A stretch of 37,662 nucleotides of DNA from an uncultured Pelagibacteraceae bacterium. Its GTDB lineage: Bacteria; Pseudomonadota; Alphaproteobacteria; Pelagibacterales; Pelagibacteraceae. The position numbers and the translations under genes are program-made. Of this stretch, positions 6,405-11,474 are shown piece after piece (position 1 is the first letter of the stretch; each line of letters opens with the position of its first letter). Under the pieces are notes generated by a model, which saw only the letters and a program-made list of their open reading frames with translations, had not been told where the DNA came from and ran no database searches. The stretch lies in assembly GCA_902603945.1 (NCBI GenBank), contig CACKWP010000008.1, positions 1 to 37,662 of the forward strand, read 5' to 3'.

Positions 6405-7139
6405 ATGAAATTAGAAATAAAAAATCTAGTCAAAAAGTTTGAGTCTGTAACAGCTGTAAATAATATTAGCTTCACATTAGAAAAAAATAGCACATTAGGT
6501 CTTCTTGGTCCTAATGGATGTGGAAAAACTACCTCAATAGGAATGATGCTTGGTTTGATAACTCCAACTAGTGGAAAAATATATATAAATGACATTGTCT
6601 TGGAACCAAAAAATAGAATTGAATTATTGACTATGATTAACTTTGCTTCCCCTTACATCGAATTACCAAAAAAACTTACTGTAAAACAAAATCTAGAGGT
6701 TTATGCGAGATTATACGGAGTAAAAAAAATCTATGAAAGATTAAGTGAATTAGTAGAGGATTTAAATTTGCAAAAATTTTTAAATAAAAAAACTGGTGAA
6801 CTTTCTTCTGGTCAAAAAAATAGAGTATCTTTAGCCAAATCCTTAATTAATAAACCTAAATTATTATTTTTAGACGAGCCTACAGCTAGTCTAGATCCTG
6901 ATGTTGGGGACTTTGTTAGAGAATATATTGAGACCTATAAAAAAAATAATGAGCTTACAATATTATTAGCTTCACATAATATGAAAGAAGTTGAAAGACT
7001 TTGTGATAAAGTTGTAATGATGAAACAAGGTGAGATAGTAGATAGTGGAACTTGCGGAGAATTAATAAAAAAACATGGAAGAACAAACTTAGAGGATACT
7101 TTTTTAAAAATAGCTAGGAGCAAAAATGAATTGGGGTAA
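6405..7139 (+). CDS. ABC-2 type transporter, ATP-binding protein
   Basis: This is the cytoplasmic ATPase of an ABC exporter of the NodI/CcmA-like class. Walker A GPNGCGKTT is at 35-43, the signature LSSGQ at 133-137, Walker B LLFLDEPTASLDP at 153-165, and the H-loop histidine follows in LLASHNM (H191). The usual Q-loop glutamine is not obvious: the expected position reads NFASPY (79-84). The next gene, overlapping by 14 nt, is the matching ABC-2 permease, so the two form one transporter. The ATG begins at the base after the tsaC stop, implying translational coupling. The cargo is unknown. Polysaccharide, lipid or drug export is typical of the class, and the glycan-type genes downstream make a surface glycan or lipid possible but unproven. 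Confidence 0.9.
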   Translation: MKLEIKNLVKKFESVTAVNNISFTLEKNSTLGLLGPNGCGKTTSIGMMLGLITPTSGKIYINDIVLEPKNRIELLTMINFASPYIELPKKLTVKQNLEVYARLYGVKKIYERLSELVEDLNLQKFLNKKTGELSSGQKNRVSLAKSLINKPKLLFLDEPTASLDPDVGDFVREYIETYKKNNELTILLASHNMKEVERLCDKVVMMKQGEIVDSGTCGELIKKHGRTNLEDTFLKIARSKNELG

Positions 7140-7917
7140 AGTATTTGCTTTGAGTTTAAGGCATATATATTTAATTAAAGGTTCTTTCCCAAGAATTCTA
7201 GATCTGATTTATTGGCCTACAATTCAAATATTTTTGTGGGGATTTATATCTAAATTTTTTACACTAAGTTCCTCATATTTTGAAAACACTGTAGGAATAA
7301 TTTTGAGTGCTGCAATACTTTACGATTTTCTTTTTAGATCCAGCATAAGTTATAATATGATGTTTCTAGAGGAAATCTGGAGTAGAAATTTCACAAACTT
7401 ATTTATCGCACCAATTAAACTTAGTGAAATAATAACTGCATTGACTTTTACAGCAATTTTTAGAACATTAATTGGGTTAGTTCCAGCAGCATTAATAGCA
7501 ATTCCTCTTTTTGGTGTTTCTATTTTTAAAATTGGAGCTCCATTAATATTTTTACTTATAACACTTTATATTTTTGGAGTTACGTTAGGTCTTTTGGTAA
7601 CTGCAGGATTAGTGAGATTTGGGCCATCATTTGAAAACATAGCTTGGGCGAGTTTATTTTTTTTAGCGCCCCTAGGATGTATCTACTATCCTATTGAAAT
7701 ATTACCCGAGTGGCTTCAAGTTATTGCTAAATTACTACCCTTAGTTCACATTTTTGAAGAGATGAGAAATATTTTAATTCATGATATTATAAATTATAGT
7801 CAAATATTGAAAGCTATCTTCATATCTTTTCTTTATTTTTTGATAGGAATACTCATTTTTTACCTATCTTATAATGGAGCCAAAAATAGGGGTACTTTAA
7901 TTAATATGGGAGAATAA
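7126..7917 (+). CDS. ABC-2 type transporter, permease protein
   Basis: The product is a 263 aa integral membrane protein with about six hydrophobic segments: roughly 28-48, 53-75, 105-130, 137-165, 170-190 and 230-252. This is the fold of ABC-2 exporter permeases of the NodJ type. A gene-family hallmark near residues 180-195 is the FFLAPLGCIYYPIEILPEWLQ region, which matches the conserved loop before the last helices. It overlaps the ATPase gene by 14 nt and is followed 3 nt later by a putative oxygenase. Together with the ATPase it should form an inner-membrane exporter. The substrate cannot be deduced. Confidence 0.88.
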   Translation: MNWGKVFALSLRHIYLIKGSFPRILDLIYWPTIQIFLWGFISKFFTLSSSYFENTVGIILSAAILYDFLFRSSISYNMMFLEEIWSRNFTNLFIAPIKLSEIITALTFTAIFRTLIGLVPAALIAIPLFGVSIFKIGAPLIFLLITLYIFGVTLGLLVTAGLVRFGPSFENIAWASLFFLAPLGCIYYPIEILPEWLQVIAKLLPLVHIFEEMRNILIHDIINYSQILKAIFISFLYFLIGILIFYLSYNGAKNRGTLINMGE

Positions 7918-7920
7918 AAT

Positions 7921-8628
7921 ATGCATAAGAATATAGAAGAAATAAAAAAATTAGAGGGATCACCAAAGATAATTAAAAATTTGTTTAATAAAAATGAATT
8001 AGAAAGATTTTTAAAGCTTTATCAAGACTTACCAACTACAGTTCACAACAAAAAACAAAATGTTATAAAAAAAAGATGGCTAAAAAATTATAGCAGTGAA
8101 CTTGAGTCTCTGTTTTATAATAAAGTAAAAAATGAAATTGGAGAGTTCAAAATGGATAATCTTAAAGATGAAAATAATGATGATATTTTAGGTCTTTTCC
8201 AAGAAAGCTATAATCCTATAGGCTTACATGTTGATGCAGGCTTTAATTTAGATGAGATAATTTTTAAACAAACTTTAATTCCACTTACTTCCAAAGGTAG
8301 TACGGTTGTTTTTAAGAATAAATTCTACGGAAATTCAACTAACTTTACAATTGATGAAAATGAACTAAAAATTACCGATCTTAAATATGGTCAAAACATA
8401 AGGTCTTCGGAACATTTAAATTTGTACAAAAAAAAGCCATTTAACAAAGAAAATCATCAAAAGTATTTAAAACATGAAAGAATTGAAAATCTTGAGGGAC
8501 TAGAAATTGATATAGTCTATGAATGGGAAATGGGTTCGATGTTGATTTTTGATAGGACTAGACTTCATTGTTCATCGTCTCTTATCGATGGAAAGAAAAT
8601 AGGCCTTACTACATTTACAAAAAAATAA
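7921..8628 (+). CDS. Putative Fe(II)/2-oxoglutarate-dependent oxygenase
   Basis: I do not recognise an exact family. The 235 aa protein carries a plausible non-haem iron facial triad: H103 and D105 in GLHVDAG and H216 in RTRLHCSS, with K226 in the following GKKIGLT strand placed where a 2-oxoglutarate-binding basic residue would be. This H-x-D...H...K/R order and spacing in a jelly-roll-like protein suggests a hydroxylase of the 2OG-Fe(II) superfamily, related to prolyl-hydroxylase-like or SAM-independent tailoring enzymes. It has no signal peptide and is Lys/Asn-rich. It lies 3 nt after the ABC permease and 13 nt before an FkbM methyltransferase, suggesting co-transcription and possibly a shared substrate. 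Function is inferred from motif geometry only. Confidence 0.5.
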   Translation: MHKNIEEIKKLEGSPKIIKNLFNKNELERFLKLYQDLPTTVHNKKQNVIKKRWLKNYSSELESLFYNKVKNEIGEFKMDNLKDENNDDILGLFQESYNPIGLHVDAGFNLDEIIFKQTLIPLTSKGSTVVFKNKFYGNSTNFTIDENELKITDLKYGQNIRSSEHLNLYKKKPFNKENHQKYLKHERIENLEGLEIDIVYEWEMGSMLIFDRTRLHCSSSLIDGKKIGLTTFTKK

Positions 8629-8641
8629 ATATTTTCTAAAT

Positions 8642-9586
8642 ATGAAAATAAAAATCCAAAAATTTTTTAGAAGTTTAATAAAACTTTTACTACCCATTAT
8701 TTACAAAATATTAATTTCATTAAAGTTAAATAGAAGAGTTATCAATTTTTTGAGTGAAAAGGCTTACAAAAGTAATGAAAAATATAATTTTAAAGAACAT
8801 ATAGAAAATTTACTCAAAAATAATAAGATTACAGCATTAGATGTTGGTGCCCAAGGAGGGTTTAATTCTGACAATTTTTTTCCTAATCAATATAACCAAT
8901 ATTTTCAAAGTATTTTAGTAGAACCTATAAAAGATGAGGCTAATAAATTTAAGGGACAAAAATTTGTTATTAATAAAGGTCTTTGGAGTAATAAAGAAAA
9001 GAAAAATTTGTATGTTTTAGATAATAGATTGGGAAGTTCATCTATGTACATGCCGAATGAGGAAGCTTTCGATTTACACAGGATTAAAAAAAAGGATTTC
9101 CAAAATTATAAAGTAACCCGAACCATTCAAATAGATTGTGATACGATAAGTAATCAACTTTCTGAACTTAATATTAAAATGTTAGATTATCTTAAGATTG
9201 ACACTCAAGGAGCTGAACTTGAAATTCTTAAAGGAATAGGAAATTTTCGACCGCTATTTCTTAAAATAGAGGCACATTTTTTTTCAATTTATAAGAATAC
9301 TCCGAGTTGGCATGAACTAGTTAATTTTCTTTATGAATTGAACTATGTTTTAATTGATTGGAAAGGAATTGGAAGTCATAGCACGAGAATTCCAGCCGAA
9401 GTTGATATGATATTTATACCAAATTTTGATAATGACTCTGGTAAAGAGTTGATAAAAGCAAATATTGAGAAATTTACAAGCTTGATGCTAATTTTTGGTC
9501 AATTAAAAGTTCTGCAAGTTATATTAAAAAGATTTAAAATTAGTGACAATAAAATAGAACAATTAGAGGATTACTACTTCAATTAA
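8642..9586 (+). CDS. FkbM family methyltransferase
   Basis: This is a SAM-dependent methyltransferase of the FkbM type, commonly found in polysaccharide and secondary-metabolite clusters. The SAM-binding motif I reads ALDVGAQGG (65-73), followed by LVEP (92-95). The hallmark YLKIDTQGAELEILKG is at about 183-198, then KIEAHF near 208-213. Residues 1-40 form a basic, hydrophobic N-terminal extension (KFFRSLIKLLLPIIYKIL) that may associate with the membrane. Length is 314 aa. Its stop overlaps the next gene's start by one base (TAATG). The family often O-methylates sugars; the actual acceptor here is unknown. Composition is very A+T-rich, as in the two neighbouring accessory genes. Confidence 0.82.
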   Translation: MKIKIQKFFRSLIKLLLPIIYKILISLKLNRRVINFLSEKAYKSNEKYNFKEHIENLLKNNKITALDVGAQGGFNSDNFFPNQYNQYFQSILVEPIKDEANKFKGQKFVINKGLWSNKEKKNLYVLDNRLGSSSMYMPNEEAFDLHRIKKKDFQNYKVTRTIQIDCDTISNQLSELNIKMLDYLKIDTQGAELEILKGIGNFRPLFLKIEAHFFSIYKNTPSWHELVNFLYELNYVLIDWKGIGSHSTRIPAEVDMIFIPNFDNDSGKELIKANIEKFTSLMLIFGQLKVLQVILKRFKISDNKIEQLEDYYFN

Positions 9587-10386
9587 TGGCTATTTATGAT
9601 TGCTTTCAATACTTTAATGAAGATCATATCGTTGATCTAAGATTAAATGTTTTGGATAAGTTTGTTGATTATTTTGTCATTTCTGAGTCAACTAAAACTC
9701 ATCAAGGTAAAACTAAAAAATTAAATTTTGATGTAAAAAAATTTTCTAAATTCAAAAAAAAAATTATTTTTATAGCAGCTGATTATAAAGAACATGTCGA
9801 CTTTGACAAACACACTGGCGGCGAGTCTCCTATAGAACAGCATCAAAGAAATGCATTAATGGAAGGTGTAAAAAAAGCTTCCCCAGAAGATCTAATAATT
9901 TTGTCTGATTCAGACGAAATTCCTGATCTCACAAAATTATCAAAGATAAATAATAAAAAAAAATTTGTAGCATTTTCTCAAAAAATGTTCATGTACAAAT
10001 TAAACTTACAAAACTTGGAAGAGAGTAATTGGATAGGTTCGAGAATTACAAAAAAGAAAAATATTAAATCATTTCAAGATCTAAGAAATTTAAAATTTAA
10101 AGATTATCCTTTTTGGAGAATAGATAAATTGAATCAACAAATAATAAATGGGGGATGGCATTTTTCATATATGCAAACGCCATCTCAAATATTAAATAAG
10201 ATAAAATCCTTTTCTCACGGAGAATATAATAATGACAATTTAAGTGAAAAAAGTATCCAAAAGAAAATATTGTCAAATGAGGATATTTTTGGAAGAGGTA
10301 TTAGATTAGAAAAAATTAAAATTGATAATACTTTCCCTGAATATATTATTCAAAATTTAGATAAGTATTCAGATTGGATAATTTAA
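9586..10386 (+). CDS. Glycosyltransferase family 17-like protein
   Basis: The 266 aa protein resembles GT17, the family of beta-1,4-N-acetylglucosaminyltransferases. The N-terminus MAIYDCFQYFNE and the LNVLDKFVDYFVISES segment (22-35) are typical. HQRNALMEG (86-94) and the metal-binding DSDEIPD (108-114) are the family's main signatures. A later GGWHFSYM segment (about 188-195) is also characteristic. It has no signal peptide or membrane segment, so it is presumably cytoplasmic, working on a nucleotide sugar. It is translationally coupled (TAATG) to the FkbM methyltransferase and is the last gene before an oppositely oriented tRNA-Arg. The acceptor is unknown; a surface glycan is a reasonable guess. 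Confidence 0.78.
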   Translation: MAIYDCFQYFNEDHIVDLRLNVLDKFVDYFVISESTKTHQGKTKKLNFDVKKFSKFKKKIIFIAADYKEHVDFDKHTGGESPIEQHQRNALMEGVKKASPEDLIILSDSDEIPDLTKLSKINNKKKFVAFSQKMFMYKLNLQNLEESNWIGSRITKKKNIKSFQDLRNLKFKDYPFWRIDKLNQQIINGGWHFSYMQTPSQILNKIKSFSHGEYNNDNLSEKSIQKKILSNEDIFGRGIRLEKIKIDNTFPEYIIQNLDKYSDWII

Positions 10387-10391
10387 AGGAG

Positions 10392-10469
10392 TGGTGCGCC
10401 GGATAGGAGTCGAACCCATAACCTCCGGAGCCGAAATCCGGCGCTCTATCCAGTTGAAGCTACCGGCGC
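10392..10469 (-). tRNA. tRNA-Arg (anticodon TCG)
   Basis: On the minus strand the sequence folds as a complete cloverleaf. The 7-bp acceptor GCGCCGG pairs with CCGGCGC, followed by discriminator A and an encoded CCA. The D arm is GCTT/GAGC. The anticodon stem CCGGA/TCCGG closes a 7-base loop TTTCGGC, giving anticodon TCG (reads CGA/CGN, Arg). The T arm ATGGG/CCTAT carries the loop TTCGACT. It lies antisense to its flanking plus-strand genes, in the only spacer longer than 100 nt in the window, between the GT17 gene and the pseudouridine synthase. Confidence 0.95.
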
Positions 10470-10493
10470 AATGTGAATAATTTAAATTAATTT

Positions 10494-11474
10494 ATGAATA
10501 ATACAATTAAATTTTCTGTTAATACTAAAAATAGTGGAAAAAGATTAGATATTTTTTTAACAGAAAATATAAATGATTTCACAAGATCGTATTTAAAAAA
10601 ATTAATTACCGATAAACAGGTAAAAATTAATGGTTCTGTAAATGTGTTACCATCAGCTAAAGTGAAATATAATGATCAAATATCAATAAACCTTATTCAA
10701 AAAAATATTCAAACTATTGCTCCAAAAAATATTAAATTAGAAATAATTTATGAAGATAAAGATTTAATGGTAATAAATAAACCAAAAGGTATGGTTGTTC
10801 ATCCGGGAGCTGGAAATTATGAAAATACTTTAGTTAATGCTTTGTTATTTAAATACAAAAAAACTTTATCTGATTTAAACGGAAAATTACGACCTGGAAT
10901 TGTTCACAGAATTGATAAAGATACTAGCGGATTAATTGTAGTAGCTAAAAATAATTTAGCTCATGCTAATCTAGGAAGTCAATTTAGCAACCACTCTATT
11001 AAAAGAAAATATCTTTGTCTATCATGGGGTGTGATCAGACCTCTTAATGGGAAAATAATTACCTTGATAAAAAGAGATCAAAAAAATAGACAATTGATGA
11101 CGGTAAGTGATATTAGCGGAAAAAAAGCTATAACAAATTACAAGACTGTAAAGGTTTTTGATATAAAAGACATTCCTAAAATAAGTTTAATTGAGTGCAA
11201 TTTAGAAACAGGAAGGACGCATCAAATCAGAGTTCATTTAAAATACAAAGGTGCCTCTTTGTTGGGAGACAAGCAGTATGGTAAAAAAAATATTAGTTTT
11301 AAAAAAGTTAACAGTGATTTTTTTACAAAATTAAATAAATTAACTGGACAAGCTTTACATGCAAAAACTTTAGAATTTTACCACCCTTCTACAAAAAAAT
11401 GGATGAGGTTTAATTCAGATCTTCCAGATGGTTTTAAAAAGATATTGAATTTACTTGAAAATTTAAGTGGTTGA
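10494..11474 (+). CDS. rluD: RluA-family 23S rRNA pseudouridine synthase (RluD-like)
   Basis: This enzyme isomerises specific uridines in 23S rRNA to pseudouridine. An N-terminal S4 RNA-binding domain covers about 16-70 (KRLDIFL ... VKING). The catalytic domain shows VINKPKGMVVHPG (93-105) and the active-site motif GIVHRIDKDTSGL (135-147), with catalytic D141. ETGRTHQIRVH, another RluA/RluD hallmark, follows near 240-250. The 326 aa length with an S4 domain favours the RluD type (helix 69 sites), but RluC cannot be excluded. Its stop is 30 nt before rpoH, and rluD-rpoH adjacency occurs in other Alphaproteobacteria. Confidence 0.9.
   Translation: MNNTIKFSVNTKNSGKRLDIFLTENINDFTRSYLKKLITDKQVKINGSVNVLPSAKVKYNDQISINLIQKNIQTIAPKNIKLEIIYEDKDLMVINKPKGMVVHPGAGNYENTLVNALLFKYKKTLSDLNGKLRPGIVHRIDKDTSGLIVVAKNNLAHANLGSQFSNHSIKRKYLCLSWGVIRPLNGKIITLIKRDQKNRQLMTVSDISGKKAITNYKTVKVFDIKDIPKISLIECNLETGRTHQIRVHLKYKGASLLGDKQYGKKNISFKKVNSDFFTKLNKLTGQALHAKTLEFYHPSTKKWMRFNSDLPDGFKKILNLLENLSG

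Follow-up and report, generated by a model that had tools for sequence, protein, structure and literature searches.

Gene content and predicted enzymes of the cassette

The window examined here is a stretch of 37,662 nucleotides (contig CACKWP010000008.1, assembly GCA_902603945.1) from an uncultured SAR11 bacterium of the family Pelagibacteraceae, whose genome is assembled in 29 contigs with 838,220 bases in total. Three genes in this window, termed P1, P2 and P3, lie between an ABC-2 exporter gene pair (abcA and abcB) and a tRNA-Arg(TCG) gene followed by rluD (Table 1). A preliminary description made from the sequence had proposed that they form a tightly packed trio, ending at the tRNA gene, of an Fe(II)/2-oxoglutarate (2OG) oxygenase, an FkbM methyltransferase and a GT17-like glycosyltransferase. 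This layout was confirmed, with spacings of 3, 13 and −1 nt counted from the end of abcB, and with the tRNA gene 5 nt beyond P3 on the minus strand. The three enzyme classes also held, the second and third by hidden Markov models (HMMs) and the first, for which no usable family match was found, by an AlphaFold2 model. Scans for promoters and terminators fell below the expectation from shuffled sequence. The gene names rnpA, yidC, dcd, rluD, tsaC and rpoH, as well as the label GTx used below, are presumed.

Table 1. Features of the cassette and its flanks (positions in the window)
Feature	Position	Strand	Basis
abcA, ATPase of ABC-2 exporter, left flank	6405..7139	+	PF00005 2.2e-30; same order beside tsaC in other genera
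abcB, ABC-2 permease, left flank	7126..7917	+	PF01061 5.9e-9; detected in 17/19 genomes tested
P1, predicted Fe(II)/2OG oxygenase, lineage-restricted family	7921..8628	+	235 aa, ATG; AlphaFold2 model, PDB fold matches, residue counts, distribution
P2, FkbM-type S-adenosylmethionine (SAM) methyltransferase, subset of cassettes only	8642..9586	+	314 aa, ATG; PF05050 4.8e-14, TIGR01444 5.6e-10
P3, GT17-family glycosyltransferase	9586..10386	+	266 aa, ATG; PF04724 5.5e-19; invariant motif
tRNA-Arg(TCG), right boundary, convergent with cassette, also at empty site	10392..10469	-	ARAGORN
rluD, right flank	10494..11474	+	Name presumed, from preliminary description

For P1, Pfam, NCBIfam and PHROGs all failed to give a usable family match, and no credible match was obtained when solved structures were searched with its sequence. 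A comparison of 18 members of the P1 alignment (A1) with Pfam returned weak and scattered matches only, including WelO5 at 0.033 in one member. The family is undescribed in the three libraries searched. A PHROG match to an 'exonuclease' (1.6e-4) spanned just 49 residues of P1 and was set aside. The AlphaFold2 model of P1, built from a 36-sequence alignment, had a predicted local distance difference test score (pLDDT) of 92.6 and a predicted template modelling score of 0.89, and superseded an earlier model from an 18-sequence alignment (pLDDT 73.3). The best PDB match to the fold was SnoN (Z 13.7, root-mean-square deviation 3.1, 164 aligned residues), and further matches were SnoK (Z 13.5), proline hydroxylase H11 (13.3), GriE (13.2), prolyl 4-hydroxylases (12–13) and EvdO2 (12.4). 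The double-stranded beta-helix of P1 was matched by 50 listed PDB entries at Z 12.3–13.7, all of them Fe/2OG oxygenases by entry name or as known enzymes; identity to the matched oxygenases in the structural alignments was approximately 8–15%. Foldseek placed WelO5 halogenase structures at the top (1.5e-6), with HygX at 1.3e-5, and the viral protein A0A1B1ITW5 from BFVD matched the fold with an E-value of 1.7e-11 and 17% identity.

At the sequence level the HxD...H iron ligands and the basic 2OG residue are conserved across the family, with H103 present in 82 of 83 sequences and D105, H216 and K226 in all 83. The fold of the model and these residues support P1 as an Fe(II)/2OG oxygenase with predicted 2OG-dependent turnover. 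The preliminary description had named a predicted structure without the jelly-roll metal site as a refuting outcome; the model of the 235-residue protein has the oxygenase fold, with the metal site predicted from sequence. P1 shares its fold with SnoN, SnoK, GriE, WelO5, EvdO2 and HygX, and also the type of iron motif known for these enzymes. In 2OG halogenases of the WelO5 type the Asp of the HxD motif is replaced by Gly or Ala, whereas P1 retains this residue throughout (D105), so by this rule P1 would not be a halogenase of that type. Fold matches as close as those of the model are tied and name no substrate; EvdO2 and HygX, presumably sugar-acting oxygenases, are among them, tied with many others. 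The single exception at H103 is the P1 of genome G010 (L111:1912–2607), in which this ligand is replaced by Gln, with error and inactivation both possible.

P2 matched the FkbM profiles PF05050 (53.3 bits, gathering threshold 22.7) and TIGR01444 (39.8, cut-off 37.7), and residues D67, G69 and D187–G190 of its SAM motif were invariant in 8 sequences. P3 matched PF04724 at 68.9 bits (gathering threshold 26) with an acidic metal motif, S107 D108 x D110 E111 I112 P113, that was invariant in 12 sequences. Both proteins are thus members, by HMM, of the families of known FkbM and GT17 enzymes; neither profile matched a solved structure by sequence.

P1 was detected in 108 of the 169 genomes of the window's genus, including 11 of the 14 that are at least 90% complete, and in 106 of 297 Pelagibacteraceae genomes, spread over 4 of 14 genera. 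GT17 relatives were found in 158 of these 169 genomes, frequently as two or more copies. Most of the genomes sampled are incomplete assemblies from single cells or metagenomes. Outside its own genome P1 had no match in 385 genomes of the class or 299 of the phylum, samples that contain few Pelagibacteraceae. It was likewise absent from 50,697 phage records, and none was confirmed among 326 pattern-matched stretches of viral contigs; GT17 relatives occur in 7 phage records at no more than 31.1% identity. P1 represents a lineage-restricted oxygenase family that has to date turned up in Pelagibacteraceae alone. The 24 named loci with P1 relatives belong to Pelagibacteraceae or Pelagibacterales records, including isolate HIMB058, which is placed in clade II in PMC4771312, and to one record titled Verrucomicrobia bacterium Opi.OSU.00C (L036). 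The latter is a 4.2 kb contig carrying P1-FkbM-GT17-rluD-rpoH in the window's order at 91–98% protein identity, and looks like SAR11 contamination of the Verrucomicrobia assembly. In the HIMB058 record P1, FkbM and GT17 are all present, distributed over two contigs (L025 and L044).

Alternative contents of the abcB–rluD site

When the interval was compared across SAR11 genomes, as the preliminary description had suggested, its content proved variable. Two genomes of genus g6 (G399 and G489) have an empty site with the order tsaC-abcA-abcB-tRNA-Arg-rluD and no further gene in between; relative to these the trio does interrupt core genes, as had been proposed. In two g5 genomes the exporter pair follows tsaC and is succeeded by other genes, and in five genomes of genus g282 (L215–L219) GT17 stands alone between abcB and rluD. 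Within the window's genus the order is abcB-[P1]-[FkbM]-GT17-[extra]-tRNA-rluD, brackets marking optional genes. This order is found again and again in the genus, more than chance neighbourhood would give.

The frequency of each gene was counted in 25 own-genus loci that were not selected for these genes, taken from a hand list that includes the window's genome and is restricted to genomes in which a single contig carries both tsaC and rluD, so that split loci are excluded. GT17 was present in 25/25, P1 in 20/25 and FkbM in 7/25. Later analyses drew on a table of 103 genomes, 60 of which had been picked from GT17 hits so that GT17 presence there is by construction; length filters that removed short or cut proteins left 86 of these for the pair and residue counts, 71 for the tree test and 41 or 25 for the Mantel tests. 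In 95 intervals scored as complete, from several genera, P1 occurred 78 times and FkbM 37 times, the latter always together with P1 (37/37), for which the probability by chance is 7.7e-5 if relatedness is ignored. The distance from abcB to rluD in complete intervals was approximately 0.1–4.6 kb, containing 0–5 genes. The site is an exchange site, and the trio is not universal across the SAR11 genomes compared.

The extra genes beyond GT17 include those for an NAD epimerase (PF01370, 2.9e-53), DAO-type and Gfo/Idh oxidoreductases, 2OG-FeII_Oxy_3 oxygenases (PF13640, 6e-17) and GTx, a recurrent putative transferase that has no Pfam hit and is named for its transferase-like sequence. The last open reading frame (ORF) of one cassette (L028:8350–9531) also has no Pfam hit and may run into the tRNA-Arg gene, since its C-terminal end reads as a translated tRNA gene. 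On a short contig of genome G107 (L228) the part to the left of FkbM matches a window gene from the 71–682 region on the opposite strand, directly before FkbM, possibly reflecting a chimeric assembly or a FkbM cassette that lacks P1.

The preliminary description had also judged the trio, by eye, to be richer in A+T and in Lys/Asn than its flanks. Neither impression was upheld when the trio was measured against 35 further ORFs of the window, each 100 residues or longer, with overlapping and short ORFs excluded. The G+C fractions of P1, P2 and GT17 were 0.265, 0.259 and 0.254 against a mean of 0.303 (standard deviation 0.036), ranking 10, 7 and 6 of 38 from the lowest, but the neighbouring rluD has 0.261; at third codon positions the values were 0.204, 0.197 and 0.192 with a mean of 0.192. 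The Lys+Asn fractions of 0.234, 0.210 and 0.214 (ranks 31, 25 and 26 of 38 from the lowest) lie below those of rluD and tsaC (0.236 each). For codon fit P1 and P2 were fifth and sixth worst among the 38 ORFs and GT17 was 26th. The composition of the trio is ordinary and its codon usage near that of other genes. The preliminary description had named presence of the trio in all SAR11 together with core-like codon usage as fatal to its proposal; the trio is not in all SAR11, although its codon usage does come close to that of the other genes. The candidate of a foreign island recognised by composition was rejected on these G+C, codon and Lys+Asn values.

Co-divergence of P1 with GT17 and copies at other sites

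The divergence of the cassette genes was compared with that of their flanks using Mantel tests of pairwise protein distances, with p-values floored at 0.001. In 41 genomes P1 and GT17 were correlated with r 0.80, or 0.78 after abcB and rluD were removed by partial correlation, whereas P1 or GT17 against abcB or rluD gave r 0.22–0.39. Between flanks the values were 0.51 for abcB-rluD and 0.64 for tsaC-rluD (25 genomes). Distance along the DNA does not explain the correlation of P1 with GT17, because abcB is as near to P1 as GT17 is. A tree test with 71 genomes gave the same pairing: the GT17 tree cost the P1 data least (1044 log units, compared with 1551 and 1802 for the other two) and the P1 tree cost the GT17 data least (967, compared with 1826 and 1920), although the 2,000 replicates used were too few according to the program's warning.

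The contrast is visible at the DNA level between genomes G010 and G023, which are 98.8% identical in abcA, 98.1% in abcB and 95.0% in rluD, compared with 77.5% in P1 and 65.1% in GT17. Identity drops just within P1 and is regained where GT17 ends, next to the tRNA gene. Among 101 pairs of genomes with similar flanks, GT17 was at most 60% identical in nine. Recombination itself is to be expected in SAR11, and it is the contrast between cassette and flanks that stands out; strains appear to exchange the cassette for the most part as one block.

P1 also occurs elsewhere in the chromosome. Sixteen off-site copies from 15 genomes, part of those known in the family, were inspected and 14 of them adjoin a glycosyltransferase or FkbM gene. 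The contexts were VTT-P1-FkbM with or without GT17, VTT-P1-GT17 or P1-GT17 near a dcd-like gene, PMT-like-P1-GT2, GT17-P1-GT17 and GT4-P1-GT17; the neighbours in L190 were judged by likeness to L173, and the one VTT gene scanned was that of L181. The eight copies at the VTT site occupy a single place in the chromosome and do not count as independent. The proposal that the trio is a module rather than a set of chance neighbours is borne out by the covariation of P1 with GT17 and by the recurrence of P1 beside sugar genes at these other places.

The VTT site constitutes a second variable site, in genus g282, lying between a VTT-type gene by rnpA/yidC and a dcd-like gene. It holds P1 with varying partners (FkbM, GT17, a TylF-type methyltransferase, a DegT aminotransferase and an FAD oxidoreductase-like gene) in loci L175, L176, L178, L179, L181, L182, L183 and L189, the last from a genome (G676) that is 5% contaminated. 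In G113 and G129 (L191, L192; L222, L223) GT17 stands alone at the abcB–rluD site and a P1-GT17 pair lies elsewhere, which indicates that within the genus P1 is able to change site.

Probable function of the cassette and relation to known variable loci

Taken as a whole, the trio is rather probably one allele of a small glycan-tailoring replacement island, carried by SAR11 relatives of isolate HIMB058 (clade II). The cassette probably alters a sugar, presumably one on the cell surface. GT17 would transfer a sugar onto an acceptor, either a glycan or a glycolipid. P1 would oxidise, most simply hydroxylate, a carbon of the transferred sugar, of the acceptor or of the donor that supplies the sugar. 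FkbM, where present, would then methylate a hydroxyl, perhaps the one made by P1, although this order of reactions is conjectural. Homologous recombination across the conserved flanks would swap cassettes largely whole, leaving related cells with differing glycan ends, and any benefit may lie, for example, in avoiding phages or grazers.

Several observations weigh against this reading, which draws on gene content, comparison and a structural model for a function that is predicted. The window's cassette contains no gene for lipid or polymer assembly, and the fold matches fail to separate sugar-acting oxygenases from those acting on proteins or metabolites. The P1 of G010 lacks one iron ligand (H103Q), the FkbM gene of G107 has another gene rather than P1 upstream on its short contig, and two of the 16 off-site P1 copies (L177 and L188) adjoin no recognised sugar gene. 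P1 and GT17 correlate weakly but still significantly with the flanks (p 0.001–0.003), all four gene trees reject each other, and the abcB data are nearly indifferent among the rluD, P1 and GT17 trees (833, 861 and 955 units worse). Strong divergence of GT17 between similar flanks is confined to the nine pairs noted above, seven of which involve one genome, G031. Recombination in SAR11 is genome-wide (PMC12374537), and part of the mismatch between cassette and flanks therefore needs no special site. For the O-chain cluster discussed below, its authors see nothing that would point to an arms race with phages at that locus (PMC11898729).

The preliminary description had proposed decoration of a surface glycan or of a small molecule which the upstream ABC-2 pair might export. 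A glycan is favoured as the likely substrate class, and we consider a diffusible small molecule leaving through this pair an unlikely product. The gap of 3 nt between abcB and P1 is suggestive, Drr/Nod-type exporter models pick up the ATPase and the permease, in every case with scores under the curated cut-offs, the WelO5 halogenases head the Foldseek matches of P1, and oxygenases, FkbM enzymes and glycosyltransferases are common tailoring enzymes. However, no scaffold-making gene was recognised, and wherever abcB was present in the stretches read it follows tsaC and abcA with or without a cassette, including at the empty site. The permease is also found in four genomes of two other genera that have no P1 hit, P1, P2 and GT17 also lie away from the exporter pair in genus g282, and genome G096 (L037 is the same contig) has the trio at the site without abcAB. 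The pair is widespread in the family without being linked to the trio, so export of the trio's product by it is possible but not indicated. In G096 the best abcA match, an off-site copy (L287; G096:C22:4919–5629), is 50% identical and contains one in-frame TGA.

P1 might instead hydroxylate a surface protein, in the manner of prolyl 4-hydroxylases, with GT17 and FkbM glycosylating and methylating the hydroxylated residue. Prolyl hydroxylases at Z 12–13 among the fold matches and the 2OG-FeII_Oxy_3 oxygenases of alternative cassettes favour this scheme, but those matches are tied with small-molecule oxygenases, no candidate substrate protein lies in the cassette, and no GT17 enzyme is known to act on hydroxylated protein residues; the scheme seems improbable. 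A recently acquired foreign island, integrated site-specifically at the tRNA gene, would account for the location at the tRNA 3' end and the absence from the two genomes of another genus. It is nevertheless highly unlikely, as no integrase was found among the genes identified at the site, no repeat of at least 14 nt touches the tRNA gene within positions 7700–10600, as a duplicate of the tRNA end beyond the cassette would, the composition is ordinary, and GT17 is constant in the unselected own-genus loci. An oxygenase and glycosyltransferase pair for DNA hypermodification, of the kind that exists in phages, is scarcely credible here, given that P1 has no useful PHROG match and no match in the phage records, and that its partners are sugar-type and FkbM genes.

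A further-reaching form of the glycan-tailoring island is put forward tentatively, as possible rather than probable. P1 would found a glycan-tailoring oxygenase family exclusive to Pelagibacteraceae, making a C-H oxidised sugar that FkbM would cap with a methyl group, and SAR11 would swap this cassette of 1–3 genes as a miniature serotype locus apart from the O-chain cluster.

In Pelagibacterales the O-chain cluster spans 10–90 kb and lies between the 16S-ITS-23S operon (ITS, internal transcribed spacer) and the 5S gene, having moved in Ib.4 (PMC11898729). Like that cluster, the abcB–rluD site holds variable sugar genes at a fixed place with a G+C content below the genome mean, mildly so here. 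One difference is position, beside abcB, tRNA-Arg and rluD rather than between the 23S and 5S rRNA genes, and another is size, with 0–5 genes in the stretches examined. The site also resembles replacement flexible genomic islands, in which different content occupies the same position between the same core neighbours; the content here differs in the same manner, and its similarity of function is suggested by the gene families. Such islands are defined as longer than 10 kb, with homologous recombination proposed for their exchange (PMC4033161), whereas this site spans approximately 0.1–4.6 kb with near-constant GT17. No paper was recognised as describing the abcB–rluD locus in a search that left most subscription journals outside.

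The locus behaves like known replacement islands, yet is much smaller and lies elsewhere. That streamlined SAR11 genomes keep exchanging a few sugar-type genes at this place suggests that selection acts on a particular trait of a glycan. Unlike the O-chain cluster, the locus is small enough for gene-by-gene testing, and the cassettes built around P1 that another genus carries elsewhere provide an independent comparison.

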